64,000 nt of DNA from Centipeda artemidis DSM 19719 (GTDB taxonomy: Bacteria; Bacillota; Negativicutes; Selenomonadales; Selenomonadaceae): the NCBI RefSeq assembly GCF_000426665.1, contig NZ_AUFU01000001.1:496001-560000 (forward strand), in the 5' to 3' direction. This document shows positions 34,093 to 39,596 of this stretch, piece by piece. Made by a program: the position numbers and the translations under genes. A model generated the notes under the pieces. The model did not search any database. It worked only from the letters and a program-made list of their open reading frames with translations, and was not told where the DNA came from. Every line of letters starts with the position of its first letter. Position 1 is the first letter of the stretch.

Positions 34093-34167
34093 TGGTGACG
34101 CCTATGGGATTCGAACCCATGAACCCGCCGTGAGAGGGCGGTGTCTTAACCACTTGACGAAGGCGCC
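34093..34167 (-). tRNA. tRNA-Glu (CTC), copy 2
   Basis: 75 nt with encoded CCA, read on the minus strand. Acceptor GGCGCCT/AGGCGTC, anticodon loop CTCTCAC giving CTC (glutamate GAG), T arm CATGGGTTCGAATCCCATA. Identical to the tRNA six bases upstream. Confidence 0.94.
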
Positions 34168-34173
34168 GATTTT

Positions 34174-34248
34174 TGGTGACGCCTATGGGATTCGAACCCA
34201 TGAACCCGCCGTGAGAGGGCGGTGTCTTAACCACTTGACGAAGGCGCC
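34174..34248 (-). tRNA. tRNA-Glu (CTC), copy 1
   Basis: 75 nt, identical to copy 2, minus strand. It lies about 80 bases downstream of gltX, the gene for its cognate synthetase. The plus-strand repeat seen by eye at 34093-34248 is fully explained by these two tRNA genes. Confidence 0.94.
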
Positions 34249-35841: not shown

Positions 35842-36465
35842 TCAGCCGCGCAGATAGCTGCACAGTGCACGGAACATTATGAGCGAGCTCATCGCGCCCG
35901 GATCCTCAATGCCGATGCTGCGCTCGCCGATGAGCGCGGCACGCCCGCGCCGCGCGACAATCGTCTTCGTATACTCTGCACCCGCGCGCCCCGCGTCAAG
36001 AGCCTCCTCGAGGCACTCGCGCAAGCTCTTGCCCTCTGCCTGCGCGGGCAGGAAGGCATCGCGGATCGGGATCAGCGTATCGAGCATGGTCTTATCGCCG
36101 CGCTGTGCACGCCCGCGCCGCTCAATCGCCTCAATGCCGCAGGTAAACAACTTTTCGAAACTCCGCACGTCAAGCCGTGTCTCGGCGTTCACCGCCTCGC
36201 CTGCACGTACGAACGCGATGCCGTACAGAGGCCCCGCCGCACCGCCGACATTCTCGATGAACGCGCGCCCGATCTGCCGGAGGACGTCTCCGAGCGGCGC
36301 ATCCGGCGGCAGCTCCGCCAGCCGATCCTGTGCCTCTGTAAAACCGCGCGCCATGTTCAGCCCGTGATCACCGTCCCCGGTTTTCGCATCCACCGCCGTG
36401 AGGTAGTCCTTCTGCGCCATAACCGCAGCGACGACCGCATTTACCGCATCACGAACATTTGCCAT
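35842..36465 (-). CDS. DhaL-family (dihydroxyacetone kinase L subunit-like) protein
   Basis: A 207-residue all-helical ATP-binding protein. The metal/ATP loop TAVDAKTGDGDHGLNMARGF has the aspartates typical of DhaL, and AAGPLYGIAFVRAG and GAEYTKTIVARRGRAALIGERSIG (in part: GRAALIGERSIGIEDPGA) complete the family pattern. The start at 36465 fits family length, but an upstream ATG at 36507 is in frame. No DhaK or DhaM gene is adjacent, so its partner and substrate are unknown. It lies 34 bases upstream of gltX. Confidence 0.85.
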   Translation of the reverse strand: MANVRDAVNAVVAAVMAQKDYLTAVDAKTGDGDHGLNMARGFTEAQDRLAELPPDAPLGDVLRQIGRAFIENVGGAAGPLYGIAFVRAGEAVNAETRLDVRSFEKLFTCGIEAIERRGRAQRGDKTMLDTLIPIRDAFLPAQAEGKSLRECLEEALDAGRAGAEYTKTIVARRGRAALIGERSIGIEDPGAMSSLIMFRALCSYLRG

Positions 36466-36634
36466 CTCCGTCACACCATCTTTCTCATGAAATTGAGAAT
36501 TTTCCATATTACCGCTCATATTATAGCACGGGAACCCGCACAGGAAAAGGGGGGCTCGCAATTTCCGGCGAGTTTTTGTGCAAAGTCGGGTTTCATATTG
36601 TTGTTACAAATTTTGATTCTTTATTTGTCAAGTC

Positions 36635-37004: not shown

Positions 37005-39596
37005 ATGCCGGATTTGGAGAATATCAACGAAGAAGTTCCCGCCCCGGAGCAGTCCGCAAAACGGCGCGGCCGCCCCAAAAAGCGCATACAAGAGGAGCCG
37101 GAAGAGCAGCCGGCAAAGCGCCGCGGCCGCCCGAAAAAGGACGAAAGCGCACCTGCGCTCGGCACACCGCGCCGCGAGCGGCAGACAGAGCTTGTCTTTG
37201 CACTCGACATCGGCACGCGCAGTGTCATCGGCATCGTTGCCGAGCAGCGTGAGGGCGCCCTCCACATCCTTGCGACGGAGCGCATGGAGCACAAGACGCG
37301 CGCCATGCTCGACGGACAGATTCACGATGTGCCGCAGGTTGCGTCGATCATCCGCGAGGTCAAGCGGCGGCTCACCGAGCGCACGGGTGCGCTCCACAGT
37401 GCCGCCGTCGCCGCAGCGGGGCGCGCGCTCTACACGATGACCGCCGAGGCGTCGCAGGATGTCACGGGGACGATCACGCCCGCACAGCAACGCGACCTCG
37501 ACTTTGCCGGTGTACAGGCAGCACAGAAGAAGCTCGCCCAGTCGCATACCGTAGACGATCCGACGCGCTACTACTGCGTCGGCTACAGCACGATCCGCTA
37601 CACACTCGACGGCAACGACCTCAAGACGCTCGTCGGACAGCGCGGTCGGCGCGCGCAGGCAACGGTCATCGCGACTTTCCTCCCGCGCCAGGTCGTCGAC
37701 TCCATGCAGTCCGCTCTGCGCGAGACGCATCTGGAAATGCGCGCGCTCACACTCGAGCCGATCGCGGGCATCAACGTCCTGATCCCCCCCACGATGCGCC
37801 ACCTGAACCTCGTTCTCGTGGACATCGGTGCGGGCACGTCCGACGTCGCCATCACACGCGGCGGATCGGTCATCGCGTACGGCATGGTGCCGATGGCAGG
37901 CGATGAGATCACGGAGGCGATCTCGCGCGAATACCTACTCGACTTTAATATCGCGGAGGATATCAAGCGCAAAGCTTCTGCCGGCGAGGACGTCTCCTTC
38001 ACCGATATTCTCGGGATGCGGCTCTCCCTCACCGCAGATCAGGTCGTCGCCGCCATTCGTCCGAGCGTCGAAAATCTCGCGAGTGCGATCGCAAAGCAGA
38101 TTTTAGACCTCAACAGCGAGCCGCCGCAGGCGGTCATGCTCGTCGGCGGCGGTTCACTCACCCCGATGATGCCGGAACTGGTCGCGGATGCGCTCGGCAT
38201 CCCCGCGGGACGTGTTGCCGTCCGCCAGCCTGACGTCGTCGACGGCGTCGAGGATCTGCCGCCCGAGCTGCACACGCCGGATGCGGTAACGCCGCTCGGC
38301 ATCCTCAAGATCGCCTCGATCAACACACTGCACTTCCTTGCCGTGTGGATCAACGATATCGAGTACAGCCTGTTCAATTTCCGTGAGCTGAACGTCTCCG
38401 ACGCGCTGCTCGCCGCAGGCATCAGCCTGCGCAAATACAACGGGCGTCCCGGCATGGGACTCATGGTCACGGTGAACGGCGAGCGGCGCAGTTTCCCCGG
38501 TACGATGGGAACGCTTGCACAGATCACCATCGACGGCAAAAGCGCGGGGCTCGACTCCCCCATTCACGACGACTGCCGCATCAAGCTCGTGGCAGGAGAG
38601 AACGGCACGCAGCCCGAGGTGCATCTCAGCGATGTCACAGGGGCGGCAAACGACTATACGGTGCTGCTGAACGGCGCGGAAGTGCGCGTCGCTGCAAATG
38701 TCCTCGTCAACGAAGCAGCCCCTGAGGGCGACCCGCTCCTATGCGACGGCGACGTCATTACCTCACGGCGGGAGCGTACGCTCGGCGAGCTGCTGCGCGC
38801 CGAGGATCTGCCGCCGGCAGGACGACACATCGCCTATACGCTGAACGGAGAGCCCCGCCGCTTTACCGCGCAGCCAAAGATCACACTGAACGACGCGCCC
38901 GCCGCACTCTCGACCGTTCTGCGCGCGGGAGACGTCATCGAATACGAAGAGACAAGCATTCCAACCATCGCGTCCGTCATTGATCTCTCCTCTGCCTCGT
39001 ATGCAACGATTACCTATGAGGGGAAAGAACACGATGTCCCCGCCTCCGGCTTCAGCCTGACAGTCAACGGTGCGGATGCCGCCCCCGAGACCGTCCTCAC
39101 GGACGGCGCGGTGATTTCATATCAAAAGGGCACGGGCAGCGCCAATGTCAGCGAAGCGCTGCTCGCCGTAGGATTCACTCCCCCGCCTGCGACCACCCGC
39201 GTGACTTTTGCCATTCTCGTCAACGGGGTCAAGGCGGACTTTACAAGCCCCATCCGGAACGGCGACACACTCGAGGTCATCCTAACGCCAATCGTTTCAC
39301 CGGGCACATCCGCATCGTCCGTCGATACGGATGCCCCTGCCGCAAGCATGATCCTCGGCACCATTGCCGCACACGCGGGACTCCCCGACGCACCGGCAGT
39401 CCCCCTCCCCACGGTACGCCCGCATACAAAAGAAGAGATGCAGGAGCCGGCGGAAGAACTGCCTGCAGCGGAGGAAACGGTACCCGGTGAAGCAGCGCCC
39501 GCAGAATCATTTGACGCCCCGGCAACATCCCCTGCAGATCCCCCCTCTGCATCGCCCGGCACGATCACCATCGAGTCGCTGATGCGGTACGATTGA
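37005..39596 (+). CDS. FtsA-like actin-fold protein with two N-terminal AT-hook motifs and a long C-terminal extension
   Basis: An 863-residue protein. Residues 19-27 (KRRGRPKKR) and 38-45 (KRRGRPKK) are two AT-hook-like motifs in an otherwise acidic, Pro/Glu-rich N-terminus. From about residue 62 an FtsA/PilM-type ATPase domain begins: phosphate 1 FALDIGTRSVIGIV, phosphate 2 VDIGAGTSDVAITRGG, adenosine motif AVMLVGGGSLTPM. After about residue 440 comes a region of repeated small beta-grasp-like units (VTVNGERRSFPGTMG, YTLNGEPRRFTAQPKITLND, LTVNGADAAPET, ILVNGVKADF), then an Ala/Pro/Glu-rich tail. FtsA is normally about 420 residues with a C-terminal amphipathic membrane helix; here the end is IESLMRYD. 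Long FtsA-like paralogues occur in other Firmicutes; their function is not established. Confidence 0.85.
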   Translation: MPDLENINEEVPAPEQSAKRRGRPKKRIQEEPEEQPAKRRGRPKKDESAPALGTPRRERQTELVFALDIGTRSVIGIVAEQREGALHILATERMEHKTRAMLDGQIHDVPQVASIIREVKRRLTERTGALHSAAVAAAGRALYTMTAEASQDVTGTITPAQQRDLDFAGVQAAQKKLAQSHTVDDPTRYYCVGYSTIRYTLDGNDLKTLVGQRGRRAQATVIATFLPRQVVDSMQSALRETHLEMRALTLEPIAGINVLIPPTMRHLNLVLVDIGAGTSDVAITRGGSVIAYGMVPMAGDEITEAISREYLLDFNIAEDIKRKASAGEDVSFTDILGMRLSLTADQVVAAIRPSVENLASAIAKQILDLNSEPPQAVMLVGGGSLTPMMPELVADALGIPAGRVAVRQPDVVDGVEDLPPELHTPDAVTPLGILKIASINTLHFLAVWINDIEYSLFNFRELNVSDALLAAGISLRKYNGRPGMGLMVTVNGERRSFPGTMGTLAQITIDGKSAGLDSPIHDDCRIKLVAGENGTQPEVHLSDVTGAANDYTVLLNGAEVRVAANVLVNEAAPEGDPLLCDGDVITSRRERTLGELLRAEDLPPAGRHIAYTLNGEPRRFTAQPKITLNDAPAALSTVLRAGDVIEYEETSIPTIASVIDLSSASYATITYEGKEHDVPASGFSLTVNGADAAPETVLTDGAVISYQKGTGSANVSEALLAVGFTPPPATTRVTFAILVNGVKADFTSPIRNGDTLEVILTPIVSPGTSASSVDTDAPAASMILGTIAAHAGLPDAPAVPLPTVRPHTKEEMQEPAEELPAAEETVPGEAAPAESFDAPATSPADPPSASPGTITIESLMRYD

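Follow-up and report, generated by a model that had tools for sequence, protein, structure and literature searches.

An FtsA-fold protein of Centipeda artemidis with a beta-grasp array and a lineage-specific tail carrying predicted AT-hooks

Described systems that resemble the protein

Among described proteins, the closest in structure to the one considered here is FtsA (TIGR01174 / PF14450), with which it shares the ATP-binding motifs and, along almost the entire FtsA chain, the fold. FtsA normally requires a membrane anchor. However, where FtsA has a short linker and a membrane helix, this Selenomonas protein has an array of beta-grasp units, and the core family to which it belongs sits beside a true FtsA in many genomes. 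PilM and the Amuc_1101-type PilM-like proteins likewise have an actin-like fold, although the structural score is lower for PilM than for FtsA (Z 32 versus 41). Tandem beta-grasp units are also seen in ThiS, TGS and the bacterial multi-ubiquitin proteins, but the identity in the Foldseek matches to these proteins is only ~9–17%, and here the units are fused to an FtsA-fold ATPase.

The N-terminal tail of the protein calls for comparison with AT-hook proteins. The founding AT-hook consensus, TPKRPRGRPKK, is nearly identical to the RGRPKK found here (PMC11354804), and bacterial precedents exist in CarD of Myxococcus (PMC4374960) and WhiB7 (PMC11354804). In these proteins, as in eukaryotic HMGA and in the protein described here, an RGRP core with basic flanks lies in a disordered segment (PMC4374960; PMC11354804); their hooks are, however, carried by transcription or chromatin factors, whereas those predicted here are on an FtsA-fold ATPase. 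The nucleoid-occlusion protein Noc (TIGR04285) is compared by a proposed analogy only, as a DNA-linked regulator of division. It belongs to the ParB family and has an amphipathic helix at its N-terminus (PMC4331003), shows no homology to the FtsA-like protein, and is missing where the tailed protein occurs. We found no paper in the literature that joins FtsA and AT-hooks, and, judging by titles and abstracts, none on FtsA, beta-grasp domains and actin that describes such a protein. Under the terms tried, no description of an FtsA-like protein in Clostridia was found either. These searches are consistent with the statement, in a preliminary description of this DNA, that no described protein joins these parts.

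Organization of the gene and its FtsA-fold ATPase core

The window, i.e., the whole stretch of DNA that was analysed, comprises 64,000 nucleotides of the C. artemidis DSM 19719 contig NZ_AUFU01000001.1 (positions 496,001 to 560,000). The gene encodes a protein of 863 aa, and its different parts are listed in Table 1. The frame and placement reported earlier were exact, and the two KRRGRPKK motifs as well as the ATPase motifs (DIGTRS, residues 68–73; DIGAGTSDVAI, 273–283; GGGSLTPM, 381–388) read in the ORF translation as they had been described. A Shine-Dalgarno-like sequence accompanies the start ATG in the window and in most members of the genus. As the next in-frame ATG is residue 93, which falls past the ATP-binding DIGTRS, the N-terminal tail must be translated, provided that the protein acts as an ATPase.

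Table 1. Positions in the window of the gene and of the features of its 863 aa product
Feature	Window positions	Strand	Remarks
Whole gene, encoding an 863 aa FtsA-fold protein whose two tails are disordered	37005..39596	+	
Disordered N-terminal tail, residues 1–59	37005..37181	+	pLDDT mostly <50; absent from orthologues outside Selenomonadaceae
AT-hook motif 1 (predicted), KRRGRPKK, residues 19–26	37059..37082	+	
AT-hook motif 2 (predicted), KRRGRPKK, residues 38–45	37116..37139	+	
FtsA-fold actin-like ATPase (model), residues 60–441	37182..38327	+	Z 41.3 to FtsA 7q6f; Pfam FtsA 47.8 bits
Phosphate-1 motif DIGTR, residues 68–72	37206..37220	+	Invariant in 28- and 62-row alignments
Phosphate-2 motif DIGAGTSD, residues 273–280	37821..37844	+	Near-invariant in 28- and 62-row alignments
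Adenosine motif GGGSLTP, residues 381–387	38145..38165	+	GGG and P invariant in 28- and 62-row alignments
About five ubiquitin-like beta-grasp units, residues 442–763	38328..39293	+	Models, Pfam, Foldseek
Disordered Pro/Ala/Glu-rich C-tail, residues 764–853	39294..39563	+	pLDDT <50; absent outside Selenomonadaceae
Conserved C-terminal peptide ITIESLMRYD, residues 854–863	39564..39593	+	Resembles FtsZ C-terminal peptide without proline

The AlphaFold2 model of the protein, which was built on 62 orthologues, has a mean pLDDT of 81.6; residues 61–763 were mostly predicted with confidence, and residues 1–60 together with most of 764–853 were disordered. In this model residues 60–441 are an FtsA-fold ATPase, in agreement with the earlier assignment, and 360 of the 382 residues of Vibrio FtsA align with them at an rmsd of 2.3, the Z scores for other proteins being 32.4 for PilM, 26 for EutJ and approximately 25 for MreB. 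The phosphate-1, phosphate-2 and adenosine motifs are kept across the alignment of the 62 orthologues, and the binding of ATP by the predicted fold is well supported by the model and these motifs.

The designation of the family as FtsA proper was rejected, both because of the co-presence of true FtsA in many genomes and because the score against TIGR01174 (85.8 bits for the protein and 88.5 for the genome match) is far below the curated cut-off of 175.85 bits, as it is for all of the long family members listed. Identity with PilM was also rejected: although the Pfam model PilM_2 matches the protein above its cut-off, the fold score is lower than that for FtsA, the profile TIGR01175 gives 62.5 bits versus a cut-off of 133, and the score is also under the cut-off of NF045709. 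No type IV pilus genes were seen in the inspected neighbourhood clusters of family members.

After the ATPase, the chain runs directly into the beta-grasp units, and at its ITIESLMRYD end the model contains only a 4-residue predicted helix. The C-terminal half had earlier been described as several small VNG-containing units of beta-grasp-like character. Since the Pfam models Ub-Mut7C, ThiS and TGS match 35, 28 and 26, respectively, of 62 members, and Foldseek, given a model made of this half alone, matched it to bacterial multi-ubiquitin proteins, ISG15, ThiS and TGS, these units are tandem beta-grasp domains; residues 442–763 form the repeats, each made up of a hairpin, strands and a short helix. 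Such ubiquitin-like units probably bind partner proteins.

The N-terminal tail and its AT-hook motifs

A long and usually basic N-terminal tail is restricted to the Selenomonadaceae, most members of which also have the disordered C-tail. Our survey of N-tails covered 75 distinct sequences of at least 25 residues (median 63 residues), nearly all from this family. A net charge of +3 or more was found in 68 of these tails, which are mostly K/A/T-rich and without RGRP, and a few (L017, L030, and L035) are neutral or acidic. AT-hooks are present in 21 of the 75, versus 0.3 expected from shuffling, an excess of about 70-fold, and when the 64-residue tail of the window protein was itself shuffled, two RGRP motifs arose in a fraction of 3.5e-5 of the trials.

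Within the genus of the window, all 14 members have a GRP hook and 13 have two. The RGRP core is invariant in 13/13 for hook 1 and 13/14 for hook 2, and the hook columns are 94% conserved compared to 66% in the remaining tail columns. At the same time, the basic residues flanking RGRP drift by K/R exchange, and each of the four codons for Gly and three of those for Arg occur in the cores. Because RGRP is retained while its codons change synonymously and the hooks are more conserved than the tail in which they lie, the sequence comparison indicates selection on the hook peptide. Both motifs of the window protein are located in a flexible segment, with pLDDT mostly <50, which fits the definition of an AT-hook (PMC11354804). 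The identification of these motifs as AT-hook-type, made earlier from the sequence, is upheld by their excess over shuffled tails and by this selection, and the paired hooks probably, although by no means certainly, bind AT-rich DNA.

The conservation of RGRP in orthologues, on which the preliminary description had made its reading depend, holds throughout the genus (14/14) but not beyond it, as most Selenomonadaceae tails and every orthologue seen outside this family lack RGRP. Hooks are patchy in the rest of the Selenomonadaceae, none being found in S. ruminantium, S. bovis, Anaerovibrio, Propionispira or Pectinatus, and on a tree of 112 cores their gain and loss requires eight changes. As the N-tail itself is missing in all other Bacillota that were examined, the basic function of the family cannot lie in tethering to DNA, and the putative tethering is a lineage-specific addition. 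The novelty of this protein lies in its tails and not in its core.

The reading that we favour, tentatively and with somewhat less than even confidence, is that of an ATP-driven, FtsA-like filament protein which its N-tail holds on AT-rich DNA, probably at the interface of chromosome and division. According to it, a cytosolic, ATP-binding protein of FtsA fold, which would probably form filaments, acquired in the Selenomonadaceae a disordered and usually basic N-tail upon a Bacillota-wide core. In the genus of the window this tail would have become a pair of AT-hooks, most likely tethering the protein to AT-rich minor grooves. An FtsA-like polymer placed in this manner on the nucleoid could link the position of the chromosome to the division or envelope machinery, and the C-terminal peptide possibly adds a contact to SepF/FtsZ. 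The role in chromosome organisation or division-site coupling that was suggested earlier is, on the sequence evidence, plausible. If this reading is true, a bacterial actin/FtsA homologue would possess a DNA-binding tail of its own, and the protein provides a testable hypothesis for the coordination of division with the position of the chromosome where a bacterium lacks both Noc and FtsA.

The strongest rival explanation is that the N-tail is a nonspecific, basic and disordered linker, serving for contact with polyanions or an anionic membrane or for solubility, in which the hooks would be just one of many forms rich in lysine and arginine and play no role at the AT minor groove. It is the strongest because tails in this family are as a rule basic but lack RGRP and long linkers are found in other proteins of the lineage, FtsZ and ParB among them, so that the tails may reflect a general trend; the appearance and disappearance of hooks on the tree and the lack of any visible membrane anchor in the FtsA-like protein also fit with it. 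The retention of the exact RGRP within the genus, despite the drift in its flanks and the synonymous changes in its codons, argues against a linker of this kind, as do the excess of hooks over shuffled tails and the observation that this gene is the only one in its own genome to encode RGRPKK. Taken together, we regard the nonspecific linker as a real possibility, with odds of being correct well under even.

That RGRPKK tails might be a genome-wide habit was considered and rejected, since the motif is unique to this gene in its own genome and two additional RGRPKK matches in the DNA of sister genomes lie in stop-bounded frames of 47–48 aa, which are not real genes.

Distribution of the core family among Bacillota

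Using a profile built from orthologues of the class, the core family was detected in 215 of 398 Bacillota genomes, including those of Brevibacillus, Anoxybacillus, Sporomusa and Pelosinus. A conserved actin-like core that is present in about half of the sampled genomes makes any function that it has of broad interest. The sampled members from outside the Selenomonadaceae are ~710–730 aa long, usually begin ~6–20 residues ahead of LDIGTR, and end shortly past the last beta-grasp unit. On the basis of sequence comparisons the core family is not new, and it scores as a relative of FtsA without a described function in the libraries and literature that were searched. Of the 215 carriers, 136 have a true FtsA as well, and replacement of FtsA as the reason for the existence of the family was therefore rejected.

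This co-occurrence with true FtsA is also in keeping with the view that the core works outside of division, either in the organisation of flagella or the envelope or as a scaffold through its ubiquitin-like array, with the tail only tuning localisation. FlhA is present in 202/215 carriers versus 123/183 genomes lacking the core family (odds ratio 7.6, for genomes that are phylogenetically non-independent), and the relatives without FlhA (G020, G022, and G039) also lack the core-family protein. However, 13 genomes, several of them from one family (f31), have the core protein but no FlhA, and the neighbourhood clusters that were inspected showed no flagellar genes. We consider a function of the core outside of division rather unlikely.

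The gene neighbourhood consists of DAK2/FakA-like and DegV genes within the class and of unrelated genes in Brevibacillus, and a conserved operon was rejected as a functional clue, as the neighbours are DAK2/DegV-type or unrelated and include no division genes. In many Selenomonadaceae (e.g., L111 and L120) a divergent neighbour is a DAK2/FakA-like protein with a degenerate GDTGTN motif (PGTHVLRTMGAAV), of which the Sporomusa counterpart (L156) keeps PDGDTGTNM; in the window its place is taken by a Dak2 protein at 35842–36561. Two tandem tRNA-Glu(CTC) genes, adjoining that for glutamyl-tRNA synthetase, are located at 34093–34248 of the window.

The C-terminal peptide and the absence of Noc and FtsA

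Many of the tailed members end in [IL][ST]IxD[FL][IM]RxD (RTIADFIRKD in S. ruminantium), of which the end of the window protein is a close variant, and the FtsZ of its own genome ends in IDIPAWMRQR. Scored with a profile made from the C-terminal peptides of FtsZ, the majority of the motif-bearing tail ends ranked in the top 0.1–5% of unrelated C-termini, although they lack the invariant proline of the FtsZ peptides. SepF binds the C-terminus of FtsZ in B. subtilis (PMC3418248). SepF was found in 60/60 of the genomes sampled, and FtsZ, which in the tailed lineage is ~395–434 aa long owing to a longer linker (~353–368 aa elsewhere), is present in the tailed genomes. The likeness of the two peptides provides a lead toward a possible contact of the tail with SepF. 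A second, divergent FtsZ paralogue was observed in Selenomonadaceae genomes (L090, L091, L092, L093, and L094); in the genus most of its copies are ~336 aa long and without the C-terminal peptide, and the same search found none in the own assembly.

Canonical FtsA was detected in none of the Selenomonadaceae genomes sampled. Most genomes of the class encode Noc; we counted as positive three that have a ParB of their own plus a match of 313–314 bits, slightly short of the Noc cut-off. Noc is missing from the Selenomonadaceae with the exception of Propionispira (G036, P. raffinosivorans), whose long FtsA-like protein has no tails. Among 95 loci, in which a few genomes are counted twice, 58 combine a basic tail with the lack of Noc, and another 33 carry Noc but a tail-less protein; four have neither feature by these criteria, and none has both. 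On the tree, this contrast is reduced to three independent pairs, of which one is informative, and the sign test is not significant. As about one change on the tree accounts for it, the contrast carries no statistical weight; it represents essentially one evolutionary event and serves as a lead only. The joint absence of Noc and canonical FtsA gives circumstantial support to a coupling of chromosome and division.

These observations could also be read to mean that the protein substitutes for Noc, with DNA-bound FtsA-like polymers excluding the Z-ring from the nucleoid and the C-terminal peptide acting on SepF, either as a ligand or as a competitor of FtsZ. The mutual exclusion of tail and Noc at the 95 loci, the Noc-bearing and tail-less Propionispira, the absence of canonical FtsA where SepF is present, and the ranking of the tail ends are in its favour. 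However, besides the single independent event and the missing proline, three Selenomonadaceae genomes (G020, G022, and G034) have neither Noc nor the FtsA-like protein, which for this reason is not a universal substitute for Noc, and Pectinatus, also without Noc, has only a short N-extension (with an uncertain start codon) and no C-terminal peptide. Substitution for Noc is speculative and, in our view, improbable. The same low expectation applies to the most complete form of this scenario, a doubtful one, in which the Selenomonadaceae lost FtsA and Noc and turned an FtsA-fold protein into a division regulator bound to the chromosome, where the hooks or basic tails would hold DNA, the ATPase would form filaments, and the peptide would contact SepF, amounting to nucleoid occlusion by an actin homologue.

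Two observations were made on the ParB proteins of this lineage. In a clade of rumen Selenomonadaceae (L136, L137, L138, L139, L142, L143, L147, and L152) no ParB/Noc match was obtained at E 1e-40, while other members of the family show ParB; this could be due to gaps in the MAGs or to loss of ParB, and the FtsA-like proteins of three of these loci (L136, L137, and L152) contain RGRP hooks. In the genus of the window (L221, L222, and L223), ParB contains behind its N-terminal GLGRGLGA a long low-complexity insert that is absent in the outgroups of the class, and which is A/K-rich in L221 and L223 and more acidic in L222.
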